Below, one piece after another: positions 2,868 to 40,465 of a stretch of 64,000 nt of DNA (positions are counted from its first letter, which is position 1; each line of letters starts with the position of its first letter). The DNA is from Oscillospiraceae bacterium (GTDB taxonomy: Bacteria > Bacillota > Clostridia > UMGS1840): NCBI GenBank assembly GCA_015068645.1, contig SVKD01000009.1, forward strand, positions 1-64,000, read 5' to 3'. Made by a program: the position numbers and the translations under genes. The notes under the pieces were generated by a model, which was given only the letters and a program-made list of their open reading frames with translations, was not told where the DNA came from and did not search any database.

Positions 2868-5675
2868 CTAACTTAATGAAATGGCAAGAGTAAGTATGTT
2901 ATTACCATTTTCATATTCATATTCCATACTTTCCGTCATTTTCTTAACCATAAAAATTCCGAGACCGCCGATTGCTCTTTTTTCTGCAGAAAGAGTTGTA
3001 TCAGGTTCAGTTGCCTCTAGAGGGTTGTATGGAATACCATTATCAATAAACGAAATGCGGAGTTTTCCACTTTCGATACTGTAGCAAACTGTTGCCAGAG
3101 TTGCCTTACTGTAATTGACTATGTTTGCATAAACTTCATCAAACACAATATTAATTTTATTTGCAATTTTCGGTACAATTTCAATCTTTTTGGAAAGTGA
3201 GTCTGCAAATGCACCTACAACTACGTGAGAATTGCTATCCGGTATAACCGAAATACTTTCGTCACCAAGTATTGCATCAAAATCGAGAGCAAGCATGGTA
3301 ATATCGTCAAACTGCGGAGCCGTCCCCACAAATTGATCAACATCCTCTTTAATGAGTTTACAAAGCCTATTGGGTTCTGTATTTTCCAAAGAATTTACAA
3401 AATCTAAAAGTCTTTGTTCGCCGTAAAGCTCGGTGCTGTTGTTGGTTGCTTCGGTGACACCGTCTGTGTACAAATAAAGCTTATCACCCGGAGCAAGCTG
3501 CAATTCGTTTTTGCGGTAACGGATGCCTTCCATTCCTGCCAAAAGCATACCGCTTCGTGCTTTCAAATATGAAAACTCCTCACCACCTCTTTTAAAAAGT
3601 GGTGGGTTATGTCCAGCATTGGCAAACTTCATAAGTCCTGTCTTCGTATCTAAAATACCGAGCCATGCCGTGACAAACATTCCTGCATCGTTATTTTCGC
3701 AAAGCTTTTCGTTTGCAATGGTAAATATTTCGTCCGGCTCAAGTCCCTGCTCTGCCAAATCTCTGATCACTGTTTTTGCTCTCATCATAAACATCGCTGC
3801 AGGAATCCCCTTCCCGGATACATCCGCAACCAAAAAAGCAATGGTGGAATCACTAAGCATATAAAAGTCGTAAAAATCGCCGCCAACTTCCTTTGCAGTG
3901 ATCATTTCGGCATATAGCTTAAACGCATTATTTTTCGGGAAAACTGTAGGTAGCGAAGAATACTGGATCTGTTTTGCAAATTCCAGTTCTTTATCAATTC
4001 TTGCTGCCGCCTCTTTGATATAGCGTTTCAGCGTACCAACTGTCTGATTGATATCATCAGAGAGGGATGCAAATTCCTCATTGGAACGAACATTCACCGT
4101 AACATTCAGGTTTCCGCTTGTAATCTCGGCAAGATCTTTGTTTATTTTCCTTAAGTTATCAATGATAATTCTCTTGATCAGGAAATAAATCAAAACAAAT
4201 AAAGCAGCGAATATGAGGATTTCCATAAATGTATTGACATACACTGAAACCTCTTTCATAAACATAGCTTCATACTTTGGCATAGCACCGACAATATAGT
4301 ATCCTTCTACAAAACGGTATGCGCAAAGGTATTCTTTGTCGTAGACCATTGACTCAAAAATTTCGCCTTGTGTAGTAGTTTCAGGATCAAATGTGATACC
4401 GATTTTCTGAAGCCCTGCGCCTTCAAAATCGTTTCTGTATGTTACAAGATTAAAATTTTCATCACATATTGCAACAAATCCGGAATTTCCTACATGACGG
4501 TTTTTTGATACTGTTTTCACATACTTGTCTATGTCTGCCCGAAACTGGGTGCTGTCGTATCCAACCTGAATAAATCCACCCTCTGAAAGTGCGATTGCTC
4601 CATATTTTCTAAAAGTAACATCATCATAAGAGGTAGGTCTGTAATCCTGAATATACTGGGACTCTTTCCCCTTTAAAAGTGCAGTTACAAATTCATTTGA
4701 CTGCTCTCCGCTTGTCATATCATAGCCGATATACTCTTGTACATTGGAATCACAAATATATCCGTTCTCATCAATGATGTTGACTTCAATGACATTATAT
4801 TTTTCGGCAAGAGATGAAAGGGTTGCTCCCATTAAGTATTCTTCCTTGATGTTTTCGGTCTTTTTTAAAAGATTGTTATTGGATTCATCCAAGATGTCCT
4901 GATAAACATCTGATAGGCTCATTTCGATGGTTTTATTGGTTTGGACCTCACTCATGCCTGTTTGCAATACAGAAGAAAATGAGCTTGTGGCAACAAAAGC
5001 AATGATAATACAAATTAAAAGCCAGCTTTGGAAAGTCTGTGAAATCTGTTTTTGTTCTTTTTTCGAGTCAGACTTTTCTCTGCCAATTAAAGATACTACC
5101 AAAACCGCAATCCCAACAGCCAATCCATTACCGATTACCATAGGTAATGTGCATATTTTTACAAATTCAAATGCGTTGACCGCATCATCCATATTGGTAA
5201 AGAATATCATCAGCATATGAAGCACTTCTGTAACCATACCAATACCCATACCATACAGCCAGGTTGGCTTCTTATCGTCAAACATATATGTTCTTAGGAT
5301 TGCTGCAATAAAACCCGCAAGAATGGTTGATACTGAGCAGGCAATCTGCGTATATGTTCCGGCAAGCCCGAAATACACGGCAACAAAGCGATAAATACCT
5401 CCTATCAGTCCTGCTATGATGCCTGCAGGAGCACCAAAGATAAGACCTGCACAAAGAGGTGCGGCATCTCTCACATTCATGATAGTTCCGTCACCCACAT
5501 CAAACCCGCCGAAGGTGGTTGTCGCAAAAATCGCCATAAGACCGAAAAGCACCCCGATAATCAATTGCTTAACTTTATGAGACGTTTTAGAAAACGCTGT
5601 TTTTTTGTCAAGTATGTAGAGAAAAATGGCGAGAAGTGCATTATATGATGCAGACATAATTAAATGTGGTGCCAT
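2868..5675 (-). CDS. Membrane SpoIIE-type PP2C phosphatase with LytS-like 5TM, sensor, HAMP and C-terminal HATPase
   Basis: 935 residues. Residues 1-200 hold five or six membrane segments of the 5TMR-LYT type (GGIYRF motif). Residues about 245-475 form an extracytoplasmic sensor, followed by a membrane helix near 480-500 and a HAMP-like segment near 500-555. A SpoIIE-type PP2C domain occupies about 575-790 with its metal-binding signatures (EVGGDFYDF, VADVSGKG, LYTDGVTEA, FDDITML). A GHKL anti-sigma-type ATPase is fused at about 800-935 (VFDEVYANIVNYS, GGLGIFMVKK). In known partner-switching modules such phosphatases dephosphorylate STAS proteins, and the ATPase domain phosphorylates them. 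Having both in one protein, next to a STAS gene, suggests a self-contained switch. Start: ATG after AAGGAGATG. Confidence 0.92.
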   Translation of the reverse strand: MAPHLIMSASYNALLAIFLYILDKKTAFSKTSHKVKQLIIGVLFGLMAIFATTTFGGFDVGDGTIMNVRDAAPLCAGLIFGAPAGIIAGLIGGIYRFVAVYFGLAGTYTQIACSVSTILAGFIAAILRTYMFDDKKPTWLYGMGIGMVTEVLHMLMIFFTNMDDAVNAFEFVKICTLPMVIGNGLAVGIAVLVVSLIGREKSDSKKEQKQISQTFQSWLLICIIIAFVATSSFSSVLQTGMSEVQTNKTIEMSLSDVYQDILDESNNNLLKKTENIKEEYLMGATLSSLAEKYNVIEVNIIDENGYICDSNVQEYIGYDMTSGEQSNEFVTALLKGKESQYIQDYRPTSYDDVTFRKYGAIALSEGGFIQVGYDSTQFRADIDKYVKTVSKNRHVGNSGFVAICDENFNLVTYRNDFEGAGLQKIGITFDPETTTQGEIFESMVYDKEYLCAYRFVEGYYIVGAMPKYEAMFMKEVSVYVNTFMEILIFAALFVLIYFLIKRIIIDNLRKINKDLAEITSGNLNVTVNVRSNEEFASLSDDINQTVGTLKRYIKEAAARIDKELEFAKQIQYSSLPTVFPKNNAFKLYAEMITAKEVGGDFYDFYMLSDSTIAFLVADVSGKGIPAAMFMMRAKTVIRDLAEQGLEPDEIFTIANEKLCENNDAGMFVTAWLGILDTKTGLMKFANAGHNPPLFKRGGEEFSYLKARSGMLLAGMEGIRYRKNELQLAPGDKLYLYTDGVTEATNNSTELYGEQRLLDFVNSLENTEPNRLCKLIKEDVDQFVGTAPQFDDITMLALDFDAILGDESISVIPDSNSHVVVGAFADSLSKKIEIVPKIANKINIVFDEVYANIVNYSKATLATVCYSIESGKLRISFIDNGIPYNPLEATEPDTTLSAEKRAIGGLGIFMVKKMTESMEYEYENGNNILTLAISLS

Positions 5676-5708
5676 ATTTTCATCTCCTTATCAGATTTTT
5701 CTTCGCTC

Positions 5709-6005
5709 TTATTCGATGGTCAGAATATCCAAAAAACCTGTAATATCAAAAACTTCCATAATGCTGTCATTCACACCGGTAAGCTTCATACTGCCCTGTG
5801 CGTTCATTGCTTTTTGAGCCTTTAAGATTACTCGAAGTCCTGCGGATGAAACATACTCAAGATTTGCAAAATCAAAGGTAAGTTCCTTAAGCCCTGCAAG
5901 AACGCTGTCAAGTTCATTTTCAAGCTCCGGTGCTGTTTGGGTATCCAGTCGTCCGGATACGGTCAGCGTTACTGCTTCCCCATTAATTTTCTTTTCAATC
6001 GTCAT
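5709..6005 (-). CDS. STAS-domain anti-anti-sigma factor (SpoIIAA/RsbV type)
   Basis: 98 residues, a complete single STAS domain. The central segment FANLEYVSSAGLRVILKAQK carries the conserved Ser-Ser pair, one of which is normally the phosphorylation site. An AAAGGAG ribosome site precedes the ATG. It lies 33 bases before the phosphatase/ATPase gene and 25 after the HD gene in the same operon. The expected role is to bind or release an anti-sigma protein depending on phosphorylation. No sigma factor gene is in this operon, so the final target is unknown. Confidence 0.9.
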   Translation of the reverse strand: MTIEKKINGEAVTLTVSGRLDTQTAPELENELDSVLAGLKELTFDFANLEYVSSAGLRVILKAQKAMNAQGSMKLTGVNDSIMEVFDITGFLDILTIE

Positions 6006-6030
6006 TGTAATAATCTCCTTTTATATAAAT

Positions 6031-6561
6031 TTAATTTTTTTGTTTCCACGATTCTATTGGCTCGTAGAGGAATGATAATTCCGCCATGGGAGTTTCCAAG
6101 CTCTGTGCCAAATTTTTGACAGCTTTTCGGATTTCGGGTGAAAAATCCATGTACCAGTCGAGAGTTTCCAAGATATATTTCCGCTTGAACTCCTCACTTG
6201 TGATCAGTGCACATTGTAAATTGTGCAATCTGTCTGCCGCCTTAACTGCATAAGCAATGGAATTTTGCTTAATGGCACCCACATATTCTGCCATATTGTA
6301 CCCATGTTCTTTTGTCAAAAGTTTTACAGCTTCAAGAATTTCTTGATTTGCATATGTTAAAACGTCTTCTTCGGTTGCATCGGTATCCTCCAATAAATCG
6401 TGAAAGAGTGCCGCAATCTGATAATTTTCGTCAAATCCCTGACTTTTTACAATCTCTGAAACTGCTATCGGATGGGTGATATAATCATCACCGCCGATAC
6501 GCTTTTGCCCTTGATGCTTTTTTGTTGCAAATGCCAAAGCACGTTGCATGCGTTCTGTCAT
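6031..6561 (-). CDS. HD-domain hydrolase resembling the (p)ppGpp hydrolase half of RelA/SpoT
   Basis: About 176 residues. HD-superfamily metal ligands are visible: an early His in THPIAVSE, the HD pair in ALFHDLLEDTDAT, and the later Asp in KAADRLHNL, the arrangement of SpoT/Mesh1 small alarmone hydrolases. The ATG at 6561 overlaps the synthetase stop as TGATG and has AAGGAGGGG seven bases upstream, so I prefer it to the GTG at 6567. Coupling to the synthetase gene makes guanosine tetra/pentaphosphate the likely substrate (inference). Nucleotide or phosphodiester hydrolysis of another kind remains possible. Confidence 0.85.
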   Translation of the reverse strand: MTERMQRALAFATKKHQGQKRIGGDDYITHPIAVSEIVKSQGFDENYQIAALFHDLLEDTDATEEDVLTYANQEILEAVKLLTKEHGYNMAEYVGAIKQNSIAYAVKAADRLHNLQCALITSEEFKRKYILETLDWYMDFSPEIRKAVKNLAQSLETPMAELSFLYEPIESWKQKN

Positions 6562-7619
6562 CAACACCCCTCCTTTTGCTTAAGAAGGTGTTTTGCCTGT
6601 CTTTCAGCCTTCTCTTTGGTTCCCAAAGAGATTTTTAAAAACGCTGCAATGGTATCAAAATCGTAGTTTTTATTAAGTAATTCTGCACGGCACAAGAAAC
6701 GTAGTGCAACACTTGAGGAAACAATATCAAGCCCTGCCGCAGATAATGCTTTTTTAGCCAGCTTCATTGCAAGATCATAATTTTCTTGAATCATCTTCTC
6801 AATATCACCAAGCTTTGTGATGCCTAAAAACGCAAGCTGAGGAATATAGCTTTCCGGGTCAATCTCTCTGATTTCCGCACCAGCAATATCCGCAATTTCA
6901 CGAATAATACTTTGCATTTTTCGATTATTGAGAACATACTCGTTCAAAGAAATCATATTGATGGCAACATCATCTGCATCGTCGGTAATAATACGCTGCC
7001 GGATATCTTCCGTATAATCCACCATATTATCACGGGCACGCACAAACTCATCATCTGCCAGTTCCAAAAGACCTGCAAGCCGTGCAAATTGTCGGTTAAT
7101 CTCTCTGGGAACACCAAAATCGCTCTTGTAGCCAATATCATGATGAATAGCTGACCAGGCGTGTTGCAGAATGGTTCTGATTTGCACTTCAAATTTTTTG
7201 CCGCAAATAGCATCAGGCCACTTATCACCAAAAGGAAGTGAACAGATGTAATGCAGGGATAAATATCCAAAGGCATCTTCTTTGATGAGTGCTCTTTTGT
7301 CAGATGAATTTTCCCAGTCTATCACAAAATTCTCTTCAATCTTCTGCCCGATTTGGTCAATTTCATCAGAAAGGAAACAAACCACACGACAACCTAAAAT
7401 ATCGGTAATATCTTCTAAGGTGTTGTAGCCGTCCCCTTTTCTCTCCAACTTCCCTGCCAGGCTTTTTTCTTCTTTCACACGATGCTCAACAGCTAAAACA
7501 GTAAGTCCCAAATCCTTTACGATGTCGGAGAGCATGGTATGTACCGTGTCGCCTAAGGTTACAAAATCGTCCCTTTGTTTTCTGTAATCCTCTAAAATAA
7601 GTCTGCATTTTAAATTCAA
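6561..7619 (-). CDS. (p)ppGpp synthetase, RelA/SpoT nucleotidyltransferase domain protein
   Basis: 352 residues. The catalytic domain occupies about residues 40-185: the ATP-binding basic/Ser region SLAGKLERKGDGYNTLEDI, the DILGCRVVCF strand, and EVQIRTILQHAWSAIHHDI with the invariant Glu-Val-Gln-Ile-Arg-Thr. The C-terminal half is helical and carries none of the TGS or ACT domains of long Rel proteins. The hydrolase function is a separate, overlapping gene. The TTG start has GGAGGAG upstream. It is embedded in a signalling operon and transfers pyrophosphate from ATP to GTP/GDP by family homology. Confidence 0.9.
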   Translation of the reverse strand: MNLKCRLILEDYRKQRDDFVTLGDTVHTMLSDIVKDLGLTVLAVEHRVKEEKSLAGKLERKGDGYNTLEDITDILGCRVVCFLSDEIDQIGQKIEENFVIDWENSSDKRALIKEDAFGYLSLHYICSLPFGDKWPDAICGKKFEVQIRTILQHAWSAIHHDIGYKSDFGVPREINRQFARLAGLLELADDEFVRARDNMVDYTEDIRQRIITDDADDVAINMISLNEYVLNNRKMQSIIREIADIAGAEIREIDPESYIPQLAFLGITKLGDIEKMIQENYDLAMKLAKKALSAAGLDIVSSSVALRFLCRAELLNKNYDFDTIAAFLKISLGTKEKAERQAKHLLKQKEGC

Positions 7620-7631
7620 AATATCTCCTCC

Positions 7632-8588
7632 TTACATAAACCCAAACATGAGCTTAAATAAATCATATATTGCACCGCCTAAGGCTCCAATCAAAAGAAC
7701 CATAAACAGATAAATAAACATACTGAATTTGCTGATTTCGTTATGTTCCATAGTAAAATAGAAATTGTAGTGCGCCTTCATATTGGAATCCCGTTCTTCT
7801 ACCCACTGATAGGTAATTGCAGAGGAACAGTCATATCCTTCCGGCGCATAATTGCGGTTCAACTCTGCTTCAAGACGTCTGATACGGTAACAAGTGGAAT
7901 CATTCATTTCATATTCGTCGCCGATAGAAATGGTGACCAGTGCCTTTCTGATCCGCTGTTCGTGCAGGTCTTTAATTTCGTTAATTTCAGGTGGCAGAAG
8001 CCGCGCCTCATTGATTCTGATGGAATAGCCGTATTTTTCGGAAATAATAGGGCTTTGAATCAACGAATTAATCCTTTCAAACATACTACCAACATCGACT
8101 TTCGATGCAAAAACCTTATCCAAGGTTTTATGAGGTATTCTGAATATCAGGTATGCTTCGTCAGATGTGATATAATCCTTTATAAATTCAAAATTTGCAG
8201 TAATAACCGTTCCGTATGAAACCTTTTTTACCTCCATACCTTCATTTGTAAGATTGATAAGGCTTACCGTTCTGTTGTCATACCGCAATTCTGATGTGTA
8301 TTTTGTTTTTTGAGAATCCACCTTACCATTGGTATTAAAAAGGGCTCTTAATGCGGAGCTATCCGCCAGCATATACGATAAATCAACGATTTCGCAGCTT
8401 TCTATCGCAAAGGGAACAAAAATGTTGACCGTTTTTGTTTCTTTTGCTCCATATACACGCACACTGATATCAACATAACTTCTGCCTTTTGGGTTGATCC
8501 ATTCATTTAAGTAGATTGTGCTTCTGTCATCACCATCAATCCATAATGCCCAGCCATCATCAGCAAATTTTCTTTTTCTGTTACCCAC
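7632..8588 (-). CDS. Unknown protein with C-terminal membrane anchor, in the signalling operon
   Basis: 318 residues, no family recognised. The body is soluble, beta-rich and charged. One hydrophobic segment near residues 290-315 (FSMFIYLFMVLLIGALGGAI) would anchor it with the body on one side. No signal peptide. The GTG start lies 3 bases after the diguanylate cyclase stop and the gene ends 12 bases before the (p)ppGpp synthetase, so it is co-transcribed with both. A receptor or scaffold linking nucleotide signals to the membrane phosphatase is a guess from context only. Confidence 0.75.
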   Translation of the reverse strand: MGNRKRKFADDGWALWIDGDDRSTIYLNEWINPKGRSYVDISVRVYGAKETKTVNIFVPFAIESCEIVDLSYMLADSSALRALFNTNGKVDSQKTKYTSELRYDNRTVSLINLTNEGMEVKKVSYGTVITANFEFIKDYITSDEAYLIFRIPHKTLDKVFASKVDVGSMFERINSLIQSPIISEKYGYSIRINEARLLPPEINEIKDLHEQRIRKALVTISIGDEYEMNDSTCYRIRRLEAELNRNYAPEGYDCSSAITYQWVEERDSNMKAHYNFYFTMEHNEISKFSMFIYLFMVLLIGALGGAIYDLFKLMFGFM

Positions 8589-29673: not shown

Positions 29674-30540
29674 GTGAATTATTTTGTGAATGATATTTAT
29701 TGGGAATACCGTTTTTCTTTGGGAGATGCAAATTTTGTATTTTTCTCCAATATTAACTCTGTTGGTGAAGTTCCGCACAAAGGTCTTTTGCACTCTCATA
29801 AGCTCTATGAACTGTTTCACGTGCTCCACGGTGATATGACCTTGGTTACCGATTCTGAAAGGACCATCATCAATCGCGGAGATACTTTGATTATTGCTCC
29901 GGAAACCACTCACACCACAAACATTCATCCGGGAACAAAACGTTTCTGCATGATTTTTACTGTTGAAAAAAATCCAACCATGCCGGAGTCCAATTACTAT
30001 GAGGCATTCCAAAAAATTTTGTCAGGAGATTTCATCCGGTTGGATTCTGCGCTGTTATCTCCTTGTTTTGAACGTTGCGCACAGTATATAAAAAGCAATT
30101 ATTCAGAAAAAGATGAGCTGATTACTGCCTGCCTTCATGAAATTATGGCCCTCATTAAGACAACCAATTCCCAGGGAGAAGAAACGCCTCAGCCTAATAC
30201 CTTTTCCGATACCGAAAACTCCCGTACCTATTTGGTGGATTACTATTTTACCCACAATTTCCAACACGGGTCCCTCACAGAATTATCGGAACTGTTGCGC
30301 TTAAGTTCCCAGCAAACCCAAAGAATTATAAAAAAAATGTACGGTCAATCCTTTAGCGAACGTCTTACAATGATGAAAATGCAACTGGCAAAAAGTTTGC
30401 TGCAGGATACCAAGCTTTCCGTAACACAAATTGCAGAGAAATGCGGATACACAGGGCCTAACGGATTTTTTGTGGCATTCAAAAAATATTACGGAAAAAC
30501 TCCCAACAAGATGAAAAAAGCAGAAATTCAGAATTCCTGA
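29674..30540 (+). CDS. AraC-family transcriptional regulator with cupin sensor
   Basis: 288 residues. The N-terminal cupin domain has the metal/ligand-type strand HSHKLYELFHVLHGDMTLV and INRGDTLIIAPETTHT. Two C-terminal helix-turn-helices are present (about 190-285): LTELSELLRLSSQQTQRIIK and VTQIAEKCGYTGPNGFFVAF, followed by FKKYYGKTPNKMK. A ligand-responsive activator by family. It is 97 bases upstream of the Cys-tail membrane protein and radical SAM pair on the same strand and may control them. GTG start after AAGGGATG. Confidence 0.92.
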   Translation: MNYFVNDIYWEYRFSLGDANFVFFSNINSVGEVPHKGLLHSHKLYELFHVLHGDMTLVTDSERTIINRGDTLIIAPETTHTTNIHPGTKRFCMIFTVEKNPTMPESNYYEAFQKILSGDFIRLDSALLSPCFERCAQYIKSNYSEKDELITACLHEIMALIKTTNSQGEETPQPNTFSDTENSRTYLVDYYFTHNFQHGSLTELSELLRLSSQQTQRIIKKMYGQSFSERLTMMKMQLAKSLLQDTKLSVTQIAEKCGYTGPNGFFVAFKKYYGKTPNKMKKAEIQNS

Positions 30541-30637
30541 TGATTCCAGCTAAGTTCATCTTCCCAAGCACTATGTATACAAATTGTTTGGTATCTTCAT
30601 TCGTTTTTTGTAAAAAGACATAAGGAGTTAGAATGTA

Positions 30638-31759
30638 ATGGAACATAAAACAAAAAAGAAGCAACAGTCATCCAAAATTGATCCCATTTTAATCTGTTGT
30701 TATATCATATTTTTCTTAGTCTATTTTACAGTAGTAGATTCCCTTGCTTCCCGTGATATTCCGGAATTGATTCGAAAAATACCGGGAACAAGTTTCATCG
30801 GACTTTTGATTTTATGGATCCTATTTGTTTTTGCTGTAACAGGGATAATATTACTGATTGTGTTTACCGGTGTTACAAAAGCGTATTCGCCTGAAATTCG
30901 TGAAATCAATTTGTCCAACGACGATCTGATGACTTTGAAAAATTTTAACAATTCTCAAAGAATGACTTATTATTTGTTAAAAGGCTATCTGGATCGGATT
31001 CTCATTTTAAAAAAAGAAAAACCTGACTCGAACAAAAAATCGGAACTGTATATTCAGATCAGTCCCTATATCTCAGAAGAAGACTTAAAAAAATATTGCA
31101 AAAAAAATCCTGATGTTGCAAAAATTGTGAAAGTGATTCAAGCCTCTACATCAGAAGTCACAATAAAAGCCATTGAAACGATAACCAATTTCTCACCCAA
31201 AACAACAAGAGCAGACAGCGATCTCATTGCACAAATCAACCGGAAATACCGGATGATTGCCAACTGTTTTTTTGTGGCATTTATCGCCCTGGCTTACTAT
31301 CCCGGCATCACAAAATATATTATGGGACAACACCATTCAAAACCCACGGGAAATCTTGAAACTTTTCTTTTTTTCATATTCCCGATTATTTTGATTATAC
31401 TATACAAAAGTTGTCATTGGGTATCTGATTACTATCGCAATAGCTTATTAGATTCTATGTTTCATAACCATTTGATTGGTATTTACCAAGCACTGGAAAA
31501 AATGGAAGAAAATCCGGATCATACTCCCACAGATTGTAAGACCATCGAAAATCTGCTTCGTGCATATATCTTAAATCACCACCGGCTTTTATTCAAAGTA
31601 GACCGAAATTCAGTGATTCGTCAACTCATCAGCGGAGGACTGGCAACCCAGGTTGCCTCTTCCGGTATCAGCAACAGCTCCGGCTGCAGTGGTTGCAGCA
31701 GTTGCAGTAGCTGTAGCAGTTGCAGTAGTTGCGGAGGTTGTGGAGGTTGCGGTGATTAA
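30638..31759 (+). CDS. Membrane protein with C-terminal (Cys-x-x)8 tail, candidate radical SAM substrate
   Basis: 373 residues. Two helices at about 18-40 and 50-75, a charged domain (about 85-195), and two further helices around 205-225 and 240-260. The last 27 residues are Ser/Gly/Cys only apart from the final Asp: SGCSGCSSCSSC, then SSCSSCGGCGGCGD, eight Cys each three residues apart. Membrane proteins ending in Gly/Cys repeats are known (for example TIGR04222-type proteins), but I cannot place this body in a named family. The next gene, one base later, encodes a radical SAM/SPASM enzyme whose ribosome site lies in the tail codons. I infer the tail is modified, probably by thioether formation; metal binding is the alternative. 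Confidence 0.8.
   Translation: MEHKTKKKQQSSKIDPILICCYIIFFLVYFTVVDSLASRDIPELIRKIPGTSFIGLLILWILFVFAVTGIILLIVFTGVTKAYSPEIREINLSNDDLMTLKNFNNSQRMTYYLLKGYLDRILILKKEKPDSNKKSELYIQISPYISEEDLKKYCKKNPDVAKIVKVIQASTSEVTIKAIETITNFSPKTTRADSDLIAQINRKYRMIANCFFVAFIALAYYPGITKYIMGQHHSKPTGNLETFLFFIFPIILIILYKSCHWVSDYYRNSLLDSMFHNHLIGIYQALEKMEENPDHTPTDCKTIENLLRAYILNHHRLLFKVDRNSVIRQLISGGLATQVASSGISNSSGCSGCSSCSSCSSCSSCGGCGGCGD
31685..31750 (+). repeat. 9-base-period TGY-repeat coding the Cys tail
   Basis: Cys codons (TGC or TGT) start at 31685 and recur exactly every 9 bases to 31748, eight in all. The intervening codons are AGT/AGC first and GGA/GGT later. Synonymous variation (TGC/TGT, AGT/AGC, GGA/GGT) shows selection on the protein rather than a fresh microsatellite. 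Confidence 0.9.
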
Positions 31760-31760
31760 G

Positions 31761-32801
31761 ATGAATCCTTGTTATTGCAATATGCAGTCCAGAGTTTTAT
31801 TACAATTTCATATTACGGGACGTTGTAATCTCCGTTGCAAACATTGCTACCGAACCGAAGGAAATGTGGAACCTCTTTCTTATGAAGATATCATTTCGGT
31901 GATGGAACAATTTAAAGAGCTTCGCAAGCACTATAACCGAAAGCATGCTATCAAAAAACGCGGACATATCAACCTGACCGGTGGAGAGCCGTTTATCCGC
32001 AAAGATATCAAACAAATTCTTTCCTATATGGGGGAAAATCGGGAGCATTTTTCCTACGGTATTTTATCCAACGGATCTTTTTTGGATGATGAATTGATTA
32101 CACTCCTCAAAAACACTAACGTGGCGTTTGTGCAACTGAGTTTAGACGGAAAACAAGAAACCCACGATGAACTTCGTGCTCCCGGCGACTACGAACGGGT
32201 TCTTTCTACTGCCAAACGTCTGGAAAAAAGCGGAATTAAAACCTATATCAGTTTTACCGCCAACCAAAAAAATTTCAGAGACCTTCCCTACATTGCAAAA
32301 GAATGCAGAAAACGACGTATCACAAAACTGTGGTCTGACCGCATTGTTCCCATCGGAAACGGTGAAGATTTCAAAGAACTGACCATCACGGCAGACTTAT
32401 TTCAAAAATATGTGAAAACGCTGAAAAAAGCACAAGGAAATTGGTTTACAAAACTTCTTTATCCAAAAACACAGGTGACCATGAATCGTGCTCTCCAATT
32501 TCTGTATTCTAAGGGCTCTTATTATTGTTGCAGCGCAGGAAACAGTTTAATTACCGTGGATGAATTCGGCAACATAATGCCTTGTCGAAGAATGCCGATT
32601 CTCTGCGGAAACATCAAGGACAGTACGCTTAGGGACATCTATGAGAATCACGAGGTGTTCAAAGATTTGCGGATAGAACAAATTCCATCGGAATGTTCCC
32701 TTTGCCAATATGCAATATGGTGCCGTGGCGGTGCAAAATGTCAAAGCTATGCGGCATATCACTCATACAAAAAAAGAGATCCCGCATGCCCCCTCTCATA
32801 A
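31761..32801 (+). CDS. Radical SAM/SPASM-domain enzyme, candidate peptide maturase
   Basis: 346 residues from the ATG at 31761. The in-frame region further upstream reads the Cys-tail codons in another frame and is not coding. The radical SAM cluster motif CNLRCKHCY lies at about residue 27, GGEP in NLTGGEPFIRKDI, and the LSLDG strand. A C-terminal SPASM region with at least seven Cys (YYCCSAG, MPCRRMPILCGN, SECSLCQYAIWCRGGAKC, DPACPL) should bind one or two auxiliary clusters. SPASM enzymes of this size modify ribosomal peptides or proteins, for example by thioether cross-links. One base separates it from the Cys-tail protein, its obvious candidate substrate. Confidence 0.92.
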   Translation: MNPCYCNMQSRVLLQFHITGRCNLRCKHCYRTEGNVEPLSYEDIISVMEQFKELRKHYNRKHAIKKRGHINLTGGEPFIRKDIKQILSYMGENREHFSYGILSNGSFLDDELITLLKNTNVAFVQLSLDGKQETHDELRAPGDYERVLSTAKRLEKSGIKTYISFTANQKNFRDLPYIAKECRKRRITKLWSDRIVPIGNGEDFKELTITADLFQKYVKTLKKAQGNWFTKLLYPKTQVTMNRALQFLYSKGSYYCCSAGNSLITVDEFGNIMPCRRMPILCGNIKDSTLRDIYENHEVFKDLRIEQIPSECSLCQYAIWCRGGAKCQSYAAYHSYKKRDPACPLS

Positions 32802-32810
32802 AATATAAAA

Positions 32811-32844
32811 AAGCCCCCTGTTTTAAACAGAGGGCTCTTTTTAT
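32811..32844 (+). terminator. Terminator after the radical SAM gene
   Basis: AGCCCCCTGTT-TTA-AACAGAGGGCT (one mismatch) followed by CTTTTTAT. It closes the membrane protein-radical SAM unit. Confidence 0.8.
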
Positions 32845-33543: not shown

Positions 33544-35748
33544 TTATTCAATTAAATTAAAATTGAACTGCGTCATATTATTTTGCTGCAACCAATTTTC
33601 ATGACCTTGCTGCAATGCGTCCCTATCCGCTCGAGAAATAGGTTCATCACATGCAAATACATTTAATGCATCCAAAATAAAAGAATGGTTTTTCATTTTG
33701 TCATCCGATGACAAAAGATACGGCAGCGGCATAGGATTGCCCTTATTCTGCATTGCATCACAATGATAAAAATGACCGTCGATTTCCACTAATGTCCAAT
33801 CATGTCTCACAAAATCATTGGGATCACCAAGATCACCGTGATATTCCTTTACACGAATGCCGCTATGACGACACAAAACATTTGTCAGGTCGGTACTGCC
33901 TGTACAAACCGCTTTATCAAACAAAGCCCCATAGGCAGAATCTTTGTAAGGTGCTTGCAAGGAATAATCCATCACAAAGCTATACCGAACACCATTTACA
34001 ATCTGATACACCTTTTCGTAATCGGTCCCATCCACTATCAAAGATAGAATGTCCCTGATTTTATTTGTAAAACGTATGGCTTCCTCCAATGTAAATTCCC
34101 CAAAATGTATTGCTTCATTCGTTGCAATTTCACGCATAGTTTCTTCATTCAGCAAATTATCATATAAATCAATCGCCCCTTCGTGGGATTGCAGAATTTG
34201 CTTTTCTTCTTCTGAAAATTCACGAATATTATTGCCGTCAAGTTCAATATACATATTCGGCAATATATTTTCAGGGAGTTTGGAAATATAATTCCTAGAA
34301 AGGTTAAGGCTAATGTCGTTAGACGGTCCAAAATATTCTGACGGCAGATGAACCTCTGTGATATAATTATCAGAAAGGTTCAGATAGCATAAGTATCTGT
34401 CAGTAAATGCTTGGTATGCTGTATCTGCATTTTCAATATAGTTATCTGACAAATCCAAAAAAGATAATTTTTTTAATCTGCTGACAACCGAAATATCTTT
34501 TAGTTTACCACGAGATAACGTAAGCGAACTTAATGCAGCACAATCGGAAAGTCCACTCATATCTTCTAGGGAAGAATTCTTTACCGAAAGCGTATGTAAC
34601 CGGGACATATTTTTTGCAAAATCTAAATTGGTGATACCATAATTCTGGATTTCTACCTCTCGCATTTTAGTACATTCCGCGAGAAAATCAAGATTCGTGA
34701 CTTGGGGTTGATTGGTACCATGTTTTAACAAAAAACAAAACAAATTCTGAAAATTAGCGGCAGCTTCGGTATTCACAATGTCCACATTGAGTAAATATAA
34801 TTGTTCAATCGCCTCCGCATTGATGCAACGAAAATCAAGAGGATACTGTTCATTAAAAAGCACCTGAAGCAAGGAAATATTCAAATCTTTTAAAAAGCTG
34901 AAATCACTGATATTGGCAGAATCGATTTTCAGATATTCGATTTCCTCATACAAGGCTAATTCCGATACTTCTTCTGCACTGTTTAAGGTAAATTTTCTGA
35001 TATACGGAATCTTATTTGTGGCTGACATAGTGGGATAGATCCGTGCTTCTTCCAAGATTTCTTCAGTAAAAAGACGTTCTAAACATCTTACGGAAAGTAA
35101 AATTGCCTGTTCTCGGGTAGCAAAATCGGCATCGTTGCTTCCGGTAAACCGGTGATCATCCATTCCTTCAACCACGGAATGTAGATTTAAAAAATATACT
35201 GCTTCTTTGGCATAGTCTGAAATATTTCCGTCGTCAGAGAACAATGCTGCTGCCGCATAAGGTAAAGGATATTCCCTGTCATTTGACAAATTCCAATCAG
35301 GATAAACATACTTTTTAAACACCCTGCAAAGCATGGTTGCAAATTGTTCTCTGCTGATTTTTTCATCAGGAGCAAACCGGTTTTCGCTGATGCCGGCAGT
35401 GATTCCAACTGCGTATGCCTTTTTCACAAATACTTCGTTTGCATTTCCTGCAACATCAGTAAACGGCGTATTTTGATAAGAAATTTCTGTGTTCGTCAGG
35501 GTTTCAAACAGGGTAACTGCAATTGCTGCAAATTCTCCCCTGCTGACAGGCACATTCAAATCTTTTTCCAAAAATGTATCGGGAACCAACTTTTGCTCAT
35601 AAGCCTTCGAAATTTCCCAAACTGCCCAATCGGAAACCGCTCCGAACAGAGCTCTGTGGTCATTGTATTCAGAATATGCATAAACACCAATCGCAGACGA
35701 TATCAACACACAAAATATTAAAAAGAAACTCAGTAATTTTTTAATCAC
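33544..35748 (-). CDS. Surface protein: SLH repeats, leucine-rich repeats, transglutaminase-like domain
   Basis: 734 residues with a signal peptide (IKKLLSFFLIFCVLISSAIG). Three S-layer homology repeats (about 33-220) anchor it to the wall. Leucine-rich repeats follow (about 250-520, with units such as LKKLSFLDLSDNYIENADTA). A transglutaminase-like protease fold at about 565-670 shows the likely triad: Cys in DKAVCTGSTDL, His in VRHDWTLVEID, Asp in YHCDAMQNKG. The combination resembles secreted LRR-transglutaminase proteins of gut Firmicutes. It may process or cross-link surface proteins. No operon partner is evident. Confidence 0.88.
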   Translation of the reverse strand: MIKKLLSFFLIFCVLISSAIGVYAYSEYNDHRALFGAVSDWAVWEISKAYEQKLVPDTFLEKDLNVPVSRGEFAAIAVTLFETLTNTEISYQNTPFTDVAGNANEVFVKKAYAVGITAGISENRFAPDEKISREQFATMLCRVFKKYVYPDWNLSNDREYPLPYAAAALFSDDGNISDYAKEAVYFLNLHSVVEGMDDHRFTGSNDADFATREQAILLSVRCLERLFTEEILEEARIYPTMSATNKIPYIRKFTLNSAEEVSELALYEEIEYLKIDSANISDFSFLKDLNISLLQVLFNEQYPLDFRCINAEAIEQLYLLNVDIVNTEAAANFQNLFCFLLKHGTNQPQVTNLDFLAECTKMREVEIQNYGITNLDFAKNMSRLHTLSVKNSSLEDMSGLSDCAALSSLTLSRGKLKDISVVSRLKKLSFLDLSDNYIENADTAYQAFTDRYLCYLNLSDNYITEVHLPSEYFGPSNDISLNLSRNYISKLPENILPNMYIELDGNNIREFSEEEKQILQSHEGAIDLYDNLLNEETMREIATNEAIHFGEFTLEEAIRFTNKIRDILSLIVDGTDYEKVYQIVNGVRYSFVMDYSLQAPYKDSAYGALFDKAVCTGSTDLTNVLCRHSGIRVKEYHGDLGDPNDFVRHDWTLVEIDGHFYHCDAMQNKGNPMPLPYLLSSDDKMKNHSFILDALNVFACDEPISRADRDALQQGHENWLQQNNMTQFNFNLIE

Positions 35749-38366: not shown

Positions 38367-38615
38367 GTGCAAAACAAATATTTCTTATCAGAATTGTTGC
38401 CGGGACAACAGGCAACGGTTCAAAAATTACAATCACCTGACAGTATCAGCAGAAGACTGCAGGATTTGGGATTTATTCGCGGAAACACTGTAGAATGTGT
38501 GTTTTTTGCCTCCTCAGGAGACCCTATCGCATACCGTATCGGTGAAACGTTATTGGCATTACGAAAAAAAGATGCCAAAACCATTCTGATTACAAAAAGG
38601 AAGGCATCTTTATGA
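38367..38615 (+). CDS. feoA: Ferrous iron transport protein A
   Basis: 82 residues, an SH3-like FeoA domain with LQDLGFIRGNTVECVFFASS and DPIAYRIGETLLALRKKDA. GTG start eight bases after GAGGAGG. Four-base overlap with feoB (ATGA). It supports Fe2+ uptake by FeoB at the cytoplasmic side of the membrane. Confidence 0.94.
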   Translation: MQNKYFLSELLPGQQATVQKLQSPDSISRRLQDLGFIRGNTVECVFFASSGDPIAYRIGETLLALRKKDAKTILITKRKASL

Positions 38616-40465
38616 AAAAAAATCAAAAACAGCCTGCCAAAAAAACATACACCATTGGTCTGGCAGGCAATCCGAATGTGGGAAAAAGCACCGTGTTCAA
38701 CGCTTTAACAGGTCTTCACCAGCACACCGGGAACTGGCCCGGAAAAACCGTCTCCAATGCACGCGGAACTTATAAACATAACGGGAACGATTACCTTCTG
38801 GTAGATATTCCGGGCACCTATTCCTTAAAAGCAAATTCTCAGGAAGAACAGGTGGCAAGTGATTTTATTTTATCAAAGCAATATGATGCTTTAGTGGTAG
38901 TTTGTGATGCAACTTCCCTGGAGAGAAATCTCAATCTGATACTGCAAATTCTGGAGATTACCAATCGCGTTGTACTTTGTGTAAATCTGATGGATGAAGC
39001 AAAAAGAAAGCAGATCAGCGTTCATTCGGAAGAATTATCAAGATTACTGGGTGTCGCAGTTGTCACCACTTCCGCCAACCGGAAAGAAGGTATTTTGGAA
39101 TTGACAAATGCCGTTTCCAAAGTGGCAAAGTCTTATGCTTGCACCGAAAACGACTCGGATGTTGCTACGAAAAAAAGTGCTGAAGAACTGGTGCAGCAAG
39201 CGAAAAAAATCGCTAAAAAAACAGTGATTTATCCAAAAGGTCGCGACAGAAAAAGAGAGGATAAACTAGATAAAATTCTTACAAACAAATGGACCGGAAT
39301 CCCCGTGATGCTTTGCCTTCTGGCAGTTATTTTCTGGATTACATTGGTGGGAGCAAACTATCCTTCCAAGCTGCTCAGTGCCGGATTTTATCATATGGAA
39401 GCATGGCTAAGAAGCATTGCCGGATGGCTCCACTGCCCTCCTCTTCTTTGTGATTTTTTATGTGGCGGAGTTTTTCGCACAGTTGGGCAAATTGTGTCCG
39501 TAATGCTTCCGCCTATGGCTATCTTCTTCATTTTATTTACTTTATTGGAAGACTTAGGCTATCTTCCCAGAATTGCATTCAATTTAGACCACATTTTCCA
39601 AAAATGCAATGCCTGCGGCAAACAGGCACTGACGATGTGTATGGGCTTCGGCTGCAATGCAGTGGGCGTAACAGGAACCAGAATTATTGATACCAAGCGG
39701 GAACGTCTTTTAGCAATTCTTACAAATAGTTTGGTTCCCTGCAACGGGAAATTCCCGACACTTCTTGCAATAATTGCTGTATTTTTCTCCCAAAACAAAC
39801 CATCCTACATAGGTGCACTCCTATTGACAGGACTGGTTCTTCTTGGAATTTTGATGACCTTTTTAGTATCTTTCATTCTTTCCAAAACACTGTTGCGCGG
39901 AAAACCGTCTTTCTTCATTTTAGAGTTGCCGCCCTATCGAAAGCCCTTGGTTTTAAAAATTGTGCTCCGCTCTCTGATTGACAGAACTCTGTTTGTTTTG
40001 GGACGTGCAGTGTCTGTGGCAATTCCGGCAGGTGCCATTCTTTGGCTCCTTTCAAACATTTCAGTAAACGAAGTTTCTTTATTGTACTATCTCGGAAACT
40101 GCCTAAATCCCATCGGATGGCTTTTAGGAATGGATGGTGTCATTCTAATTGGCTTTATGTTAGGTCTTCCTGCCAATGAAATTGTACTGCCAGTAATTCT
40201 GATGGCATATACCGGGTTAGGAAGCCTGACAGCTGTAGAAGACTTTTCTGCTTTGCGAGAAATCCTGATGCAAAACGGTTGGACGAATCTGACTGCCCTT
40301 TGCACCTTGTTGTTTTCGTTGTTTCACTGGCCTTGTGCAACCACTTTGCTGACTGTCAAAAAAGAAACAGGAAGTATCAAATGGACAGTATTGACAGCGC
40401 TGATCCCCACAATCATCGGAGTTCTTCTTTGTATGACCGTTAAGCTTCTTGTTGAGTTACTATAA
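38612..40465 (+). CDS. feoB: Ferrous iron transporter FeoB (GTPase permease)
   Basis: 617 residues, slightly shorter than typical. The N-terminal G domain has GNPNVGKST, the switch region GNWPGKTV, DIPGTYSL and NLMDEA in place of NKxD. The transmembrane Gate/Nucleoside-recognition halves follow, with GFGCNAVGVTGTRIID and SLVPCNGKFPTLLAII, both typical iron-path segments. Basic N-terminal start KKNQKQPAKK. Anaerobic Fe2+ import. No feoC follows; a terminator does. Confidence 0.97.
   Translation: MKKNQKQPAKKTYTIGLAGNPNVGKSTVFNALTGLHQHTGNWPGKTVSNARGTYKHNGNDYLLVDIPGTYSLKANSQEEQVASDFILSKQYDALVVVCDATSLERNLNLILQILEITNRVVLCVNLMDEAKRKQISVHSEELSRLLGVAVVTTSANRKEGILELTNAVSKVAKSYACTENDSDVATKKSAEELVQQAKKIAKKTVIYPKGRDRKREDKLDKILTNKWTGIPVMLCLLAVIFWITLVGANYPSKLLSAGFYHMEAWLRSIAGWLHCPPLLCDFLCGGVFRTVGQIVSVMLPPMAIFFILFTLLEDLGYLPRIAFNLDHIFQKCNACGKQALTMCMGFGCNAVGVTGTRIIDTKRERLLAILTNSLVPCNGKFPTLLAIIAVFFSQNKPSYIGALLLTGLVLLGILMTFLVSFILSKTLLRGKPSFFILELPPYRKPLVLKIVLRSLIDRTLFVLGRAVSVAIPAGAILWLLSNISVNEVSLLYYLGNCLNPIGWLLGMDGVILIGFMLGLPANEIVLPVILMAYTGLGSLTAVEDFSALREILMQNGWTNLTALCTLLFSLFHWPCATTLLTVKKETGSIKWTVLTALIPTIIGVLLCMTVKLLVELL

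Follow-up and report, generated by a model that had tools for sequence, protein, structure and literature searches.

A radical SAM/SPASM enzyme conserved beside Cys-tailed membrane proteins, a candidate leaderless modification system

What purpose is served by a membrane protein that ends in a strictly periodic row of Cys residues, and is this tail the substrate of the radical SAM/SPASM enzyme encoded directly behind it? The question is raised by a locus on contig SVKD01000009.1 of Oscillospiraceae bacterium (GCA_015068645.1), an inhabitant of the gut, of which positions 1 to 64,000, referred to below as the window, were analysed. Judging from sequence comparisons, we think it likely that the genes of the membrane protein P0001 and the enzyme P0002 make up a two-gene unit without a leader, and that P0002 acts on Cys residues of a membrane-anchored and probably cytosolic tail. 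That the enzyme modifies the tail had been the core idea of an initial annotation of this DNA, and it now stands as a strong hypothesis. The features of the locus are listed in table 1.

The C-terminus of P0001, CSGCSSCSSCSSCSSCGGCGGCGD, carries its eight Cys residues at an exact spacing of three with only Ser and Gly between them, as the initial annotation had read it, and the stretch that runs up to the stop codon, NSSGCSGCSSCSSCSSCSSCGGCGGCGD, is closed by Gly-Asp. The tail, SSGCSGCSSCSSCSSCSSCGGCGGCGD when written as a peptide, is the candidate substrate of the enzyme. The ATG of P0002 at 31761 was correctly placed one base past the TAA of P0001 (31757-31759); a second in-frame ATG is found at 31782. 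Two further suggestions fared worse. A ribosome site had been assumed within the tail codons; the GGAGG in question is located 14 nt 5' of the ATG and is missing from the tail ends of three relatives (L046, L047 and L048), which makes coupling between stop and start likelier than a dedicated ribosome site. Control by the AraC-family regulator had also been proposed; its gene lies 97 nt upstream on the same strand, and none was seen upstream of the other pairs. The stem-loop behind the enzyme gene is near-symmetric, with a 16-bp stem and runs of A and T at its flanks. No copper genes adjoin the pair and, by inspection, neither a third conserved gene at the pair loci nor a peptidase or exporter ORF beside the pair at any locus was recognised. 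Elsewhere in the window, convergent to the pair, is the gene of an S-layer-homology protein (33544-35748, -) that has both LRR and transglutaminase-like regions, and ~6 kb downstream lies that of a ferrous iron transporter, FeoB (38612-40465, +; Pfam FeoB_N, 196 bits), with no evidence that it is linked to the pair.

Table 1. Positions of the candidate two-gene unit and its flanking features in the window
Feature	Position	Strand	Remarks
AraC-family regulator (cupin + HTH_18)	29674-30540	+	neighbour, probably outside the system
Shine-Dalgarno-like AAGGAG	30622-30627	+	10 nt 5' of P0001 start, read from sequence
P0001, membrane protein, candidate tethered substrate	30638-31759	+	373 aa; four TM helices (predicted)
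P0001 Cys-tail codons, candidate modification sites	31685-31756	+	8 Cys, spacing 3, Ser/Gly between; end CGGCGGCGD
P0002, radical SAM/SPASM enzyme, candidate tail modifier	31761-32801	+	346 aa
Stem-loop, possible terminator of two-gene unit	32807-32841	. (found on -)	consensus match only

A repeat of this kind might be a nucleotide artefact, produced by a microsatellite or a ribosome-site effect and lacking any function in the protein; the DNA is indeed repetitive, and GGAGG can arise from Gly-Gly codons. Across the 1.76 Mb of the window's genome (20 contigs), we find just three instances of the Cys-repeat DNA pattern in frame, all of them at the C-termini of homologous membrane proteins, and a reversed control pattern gave 0 matches in the same sequence; the repeat is therefore not due to chance. 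Two of these sites belong to paralogues of P0001 elsewhere in the genome, one of 438 aa (C5:121 kb) and one of 668 aa (C5:65 kb), with 31% and 23% identity to P0001, respectively, over the aligned tail-free body. Both paralogue tails end in CGGCGGCGGCGD. Seven A2-type proteins (P0001, its two paralogues and the proteins of L046, L047, L048 and L052) share their final nine residues, CGGCGGCGD, without exception, whereas their bodies are 24-33% identical to P0001. Over all pairs of these seven proteins, which are not independent of each other, the last nine codons hold 113 synonymous and 0 non-synonymous differences, whereas ~3.4 non-synonymous per synonymous difference would be expected by opportunity. 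The absence of any non-synonymous change is striking and reflects strict selection on the tail end at the amino acid level. In the tail of G170, Ser is encoded by TCN codons in place of AGY, and such synonymous variation means that the tail is not a DNA microsatellite. Moreover, tails in trans exist without any following gene, and the tail ends of L046-L048 do without GGAGG. The codon data and the tails in trans thus refute the artefact, to which we attach next to no probability. Asp is the C-terminal residue of all tails except those of L064 (GGSW) and L071 (CGG), and CGGCGGCGD provides a recognisable C-terminal signature for finding further members.

If the tail is what the enzyme recognises, the two should be kept together in other genomes, and the search for homologous pairs proposed in the initial annotation was productive. 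Scanning the representative genomes of GTDB turned up four relatives of the enzyme (L046-L049) with 56-70% identity, all in Clostridia metagenome assemblies, at least three of which are labelled ruminant gut; in three of the four a membrane protein ending in CGGCGGCGGCGD is located directly upstream. When 391 genomes of the class were searched independently, this time for the tail pattern, three more loci emerged (G182, G170 and G257), and in each the tail protein is directly followed by the same type of enzyme. A profile built from seven enzymes (A1) and run on the same 391 genomes returned seven strong members (E below 1e-100), separated by a gap from AgrB-linked radical SAM proteins at 1e-63. 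The members added in this way are G329, with a tail ending in HGCSSCGGFGGGCGGCGGD, G312, where the partner is a DUF2207 protein with the end SSGCSSCGGGCSSCGGGCSSCGGGGSW, and G358, which has no tail. A sample of the phylum adds G705, from another class, where a Cys-tailed TIGR04222-like protein is located beside the enzyme. Altogether, a Cys-tailed membrane protein is found immediately upstream at 10 of the 12 enzyme-clade loci. The gap between its stop and the enzyme start is 1 nt in the window, 4 in L046, 2 in L047, 5 in L048 and 1 in L052; at the other loci, where the start is less certain, it is within roughly a dozen nt. With a support of 100/100, the 12 enzymes are set apart from the AgrB-linked group as a single clade, and within this clade the seven enzymes closest to that of the window form a sub-clade (100/100); ScfB was excluded from this tree, since its long branch made the outgroup version uninformative. 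Across the clade the bodies vary (A2-type, canonical TIGR04222 and one DUF2207), and the tail and the enzyme are kept, which points to the tail as the part that the enzyme recognises. The presence of the pair at 10 of 12 loci and the strict conservation of the tail end support a specific relationship between P0001 and P0002.

Within the sister group, the radical SAM/SPASM proteins of L065, L066 and L068 contain an in-frame TAG within the matched stretch, and an AgrB-like gene adjoins those of L065 and L068. In G182, the TIGR04222 tail protein preceding the enzyme is split between two frames (L050 5295-5807 and about 5740-6333), owing to a frameshift or an assembly error.

The distribution across genomes bears on whether the tail is modified at all. 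The enzyme is present in 7 of the 391 class genomes and the DNA tail pattern in 50. The latter was read in nearly all 50 (G064 and G090 were left out), at one or a few sites per genome, and clean in-frame C-terminal tails of only Ser and Gly around the Cys residues were found on long membrane proteins solely in G000 (the window's genome), G170, G182 and G257. All four have the enzyme; the chance of this, given 7 carriers in 391, is ~4e-8, a value that is indicative, since A1 includes enzymes first reached via tails. In four congeners of the window's genome the enzyme, the tail and the body are all absent. Homologues routinely lacking the enzyme had been named in the initial annotation as evidence that would speak against its idea. 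At the genome level this was not observed, all clean long tails that were read belonging to enzyme genomes; locally it was, for two of the three tailed paralogues of the window's genome, neither of which has a radical SAM gene beside it. This genome has one copy of the enzyme. Apart from it, just one gene was matched, of the SCIFF-maturase-like (ScfB) type (L015), the product of which is 27% identical to P0002; it was considered as a second tail enzyme and rejected as a typical representative of its kind. Three tailed paralogues and a single enzyme make modification in trans likely.

Alternatively, the tail could be an unmodified metal-binding or thiol element, and the co-transcribed enzyme would act on another protein, a lipid or a cofactor. 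The two paralogues away from the enzyme are compatible with this, as are two enzyme loci (L049/G777 and L061/G358) that have no adjoining Cys tail; both are located near an ion-channel-like gene. That such tails can exist alone is illustrated by G094, a genome without a member of the enzyme clade, in which a short membrane protein adjacent to FeoB has a CSGCSSCSGCSGC tail (L055 about 6190-6393, -). The FeoB-associated Cys-rich small membrane proteins share a membrane anchor and a cytosol-facing CxxC tail with P0001, but they are small, have a single TM helix and are unrelated in the body. We nevertheless consider the unmodified tail unlikely, because 10 loci have kept both tail and enzyme through changes of the body, all four genomes with tails on long proteins carry the enzyme, and selection on the amino acids of the tail end is strict. 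For the two tail-less loci, a tail encoded elsewhere was sought and dismissed, no CxxCxxC tail having been found in either genome; the three-Cys pattern in G777 and G358 gave only ferredoxin-like, radical-enzyme-activase-like or chance sites. As both loci fall inside the sub-clade, it is possible that the tail has been lost there or that the substrate is different.

The body of P0001 places the tail in a known family of membrane proteins. By itself, P0001 reaches no family cut-off, and it gives no match at E<1 to the TIGR04222 model (cut-off 43 bits); the whole of G000 has no match to this model either. Two enzyme-linked homologues exceed the cut-off (L018/G182, 45.7 bits; L063/G329, 47.2 bits), and these are the sole two of the 391 class genomes where TIGR04222 does so, in both at the enzyme locus. 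When tail-free profiles were aligned with hhalign, the P0001 family matched the TIGR04222-type enzyme neighbours with 96.4% probability (E 1.3e-9, 41 columns) in a TM-pair region that spans the TM motif KYIMGQHHSKPTGNL. The DUF2207_C model matches L064 strongly and L063, L071 and P0001 weakly, and the low-complexity Ser/Gly(/Cys) C-terminal tail, a trait of TIGR04222 proteins, is present. These profile matches suggest a single TIGR04222/DUF2207_C superfamily for the tail proteins, of which P0001 would be a divergent member. In the AlphaFold model of P0001 (pLDDT 71, pTM 0.56), a soluble domain accompanies the TM helices, and the tail (343-373) is disordered. By charge counts, 8 of the 12 tails are assigned to the inside, that of P0001 among them (13 Lys and Arg on its tail side against 5 opposite); the assignment is ambiguous for the remaining four, owing to a hydrophobic stretch before the tail or a missed helix. 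By the charge rule only, the tail of P0001 is probably cytosolic. The tails of TIGR04222 proteins have been predicted to be periplasmic (PMC12452194).

The same study from 2025 proposed Cys-tailed TIGR04222 ('near_uncomplex') membrane proteins as substrates of MNIO (DUF692) enzymes (PMC12452194). Many TIGR04222 proteins were found there without a nearby MNIO, a third of the TIGR04222 genomes lack MNIO, and radical SAM appears in its reference list only. The system described here resembles that one in the superfamily of the body, the TM motif (K..hMG....KPhxxL), the disordered Ser/Gly/Cys C-terminal tail, the adjoining gene for an oxidative maturase and the lack of both a signal peptide and a cleaved leader. 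It differs in that the maturase is a radical SAM/SPASM enzyme instead of an iron-dependent MNIO, the taxa are anaerobic Bacillota and the tail ends in the invariant CGGCGGCGD. A search of the window's genome for MNIO (PF05114) gave no match, and control genomes were positive. No report of a radical SAM/TIGR04222 pair was found in the open-licence literature, and an earlier description is possible; the pair is real and conserved and, as a radical SAM counterpart within an already known type of tailed membrane proteins, apparently not previously described.

P0002 has the equipment of a peptide-modifying enzyme. It exceeds the Pfam cut-offs for Radical_SAM (72.4 bits, cut-off 29.5) and SPASM (28.0, cut-off 21.5), and its CX3CX2C motif is formed by C22, C26 and C29. 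The SPASM Cys residues are C257, C275, C312, C315, C321, C327 and C343, arranged as C257-X12-G-X4-C275, C312-X2-C315-X5-C321-X5-C327 and C343, the last spacing being X5 where X3 is usual. All ten cluster ligands (three radical SAM and seven SPASM) are invariant in the 12 clade enzymes, whereas C327 is replaced by Ala in the AgrB-linked sister group, L065, L066 and L068 having no equivalent Cys. With just 21 residues ahead of its first cluster Cys, P0002 has no fused RRE. All named NCBIfam radical SAM maturases searched (SbtM, ACGX, PapB, SCIFF, CefB and TIGR04053) score under their curated cut-offs, the best with 139 against 395 bits; for P0002 the values are 124 against 350 for SbtM, 132 against 400 for ACGX and 65 against 600 for CefB. 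The clade thereby names a radical SAM subfamily that the searched curated NCBIfam models do not cover. The nearest solved proteins by sequence are SkfB (6efn, 78.5 bits) and 5wgg (73.9 bits), labelled only 'Radical SAM domain protein' in the search output, which we take to be CteB. SkfB and CteB are peptide thioether synthases that link Cys to an alpha-carbon.

This kinship leads to the first of two chemistries, thioether cross-links of the sactionine or ranthipeptide kind from tail Cys to Gly or Ser, which would give a rigid cross-linked tail. In its favour, P0002 also gives matches to the maturase models of PapB and SCIFF, and its SPASM ligands are complete; on the other hand, the only acceptors would be Ser and Gly, no specific family cut-off is reached and an RRE is missing. 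We regard it as a good candidate, though less likely than not. MNIO products on bufferins are thiooxazoles, SbtM catalyses such a conversion among radical SAM enzymes, and tail Cys residues could likewise be converted into rings of the 5-thiooxazole type, with the tail as a membrane-tethered chelator of copper or another metal. MNIO enzymes have been proposed to act on TIGR04222 proteins whose C-termini show this Ser/Gly-Cys pattern (PMC12452194), Gly or Ser before each Cys would permit ring closure on the preceding carbonyl, and in all five clade members scanned the SbtM model (113-143 bits) and the ACGX-system model (110-144) rank near the top. Against this, the scores are far under the family cut-offs of 350-400 bits, the TIGR04053, NirJ and AhbD models give similar ones, thioethers are what the nearest solved enzymes form, and copper genes beside the pair are wanting; this outcome, too, is a good candidate and, taken by itself, less likely than not. 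Since the profile scores single out neither, thiooxazoles seem about as plausible as thioethers.

Among other known systems, the SbtM/SbtA thio(seleno)oxazole system (TIGR04082), reportedly described by Lewis et al. in 2021 with a peptide substrate, also employs a radical SAM/SPASM enzyme for Cys-rich substrates and is among the better profile scores; here the substrate would be a multi-pass membrane protein, and no selenocysteine was seen. The SCIFF/ranthipeptide (CteB) and sactipeptide (SkfB) maturases share the radical SAM and SPASM domains and Cys-directed chemistry, but they act on small leader-bearing precursors with the help of an RRE, whereas this locus has neither RRE nor small precursor gene. 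The ACGX (TIGR04340) and Cys-every-fifth (CefB, NF038107) enzymes are radical SAM/SPASM proteins with periodic-Cys substrates; they differ in the Cys period, and P0002 scores far below their cut-offs. Unlike a classical RiPP, the pair has no room for an RRE and no leader, and the candidate substrate is a 373-aa membrane protein. The membrane-tethered, uncleaved substrate envisaged in the initial annotation is thus well founded as regards the parts, with a tail on a multi-pass protein that has neither a leader nor an adjoining peptidase or transporter gene, and an enzyme of peptide-modifying type with all SPASM ligands; the modification itself is a matter of prediction.

Under modification by P0002, the preferred reading, P0001 and P0002 would be co-translated by stop-start coupling, with a possible terminator 3' of the enzyme gene. 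The enzyme would bind the disordered tail, the invariant CGGCGGCGD being the likely recognition element, and oxidise several tail Cys residues in the cytosol, giving either alpha-carbon thioether bridges from Cys to Gly or Ser or Cys-derived thiooxazole rings. Lacking a leader, modified P0001 would stay uncleaved in the membrane, and a single enzyme would probably serve all of the tailed paralogues in this genome, one in cis and two in trans. Once modified, the tail may act as a tethered metal- or redox-handling element, a guess guided by Cys chemistry and the bufferins. The chances seem to us evenly divided for the wider proposal that a radical SAM enzyme adds many Cys-derived modifications to the cytosolic tails of several integral membrane proteins, in cis and in trans, leaderless and uncleaved, as a membrane-anchored metal-binding or redox 'comb' on which MNIO and radical SAM enzymes have converged. 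If true, two unrelated classes of oxidative enzymes would have arrived at one kind of tail, and the product would be a permanent part of the membrane, not an excised peptide. The two adjacent genes offer a compact, testable system in which a radical SAM enzyme may modify a membrane protein of full length, and the pair could reveal the purpose of such tails and whether different chemistries reach one end.

Two other readings were considered and set aside. A role in defence was suggested by a PADLOC match to viperin (pVip, 84.6 bits), which reflects the common radical SAM core; SPASM clusters are present, and no defence neighbours were noticed. A phage or plasmid origin was rejected because plasmid and phage records gave no relative at the E-values set and IMG/VR gave distant radical SAM matches only (19-31% identity). 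An ORF of G705 (L079, G705:C29) with a zinc-ribbon-like stretch ends in TGCGGCGGCGSCSK, which may be another Cys tail or a chance occurrence. In the Oscillospiraceae relative L046, the pair is followed by three tandem Ser/Thr-kinase-like genes and a PP2C-like gene (3416-8430).
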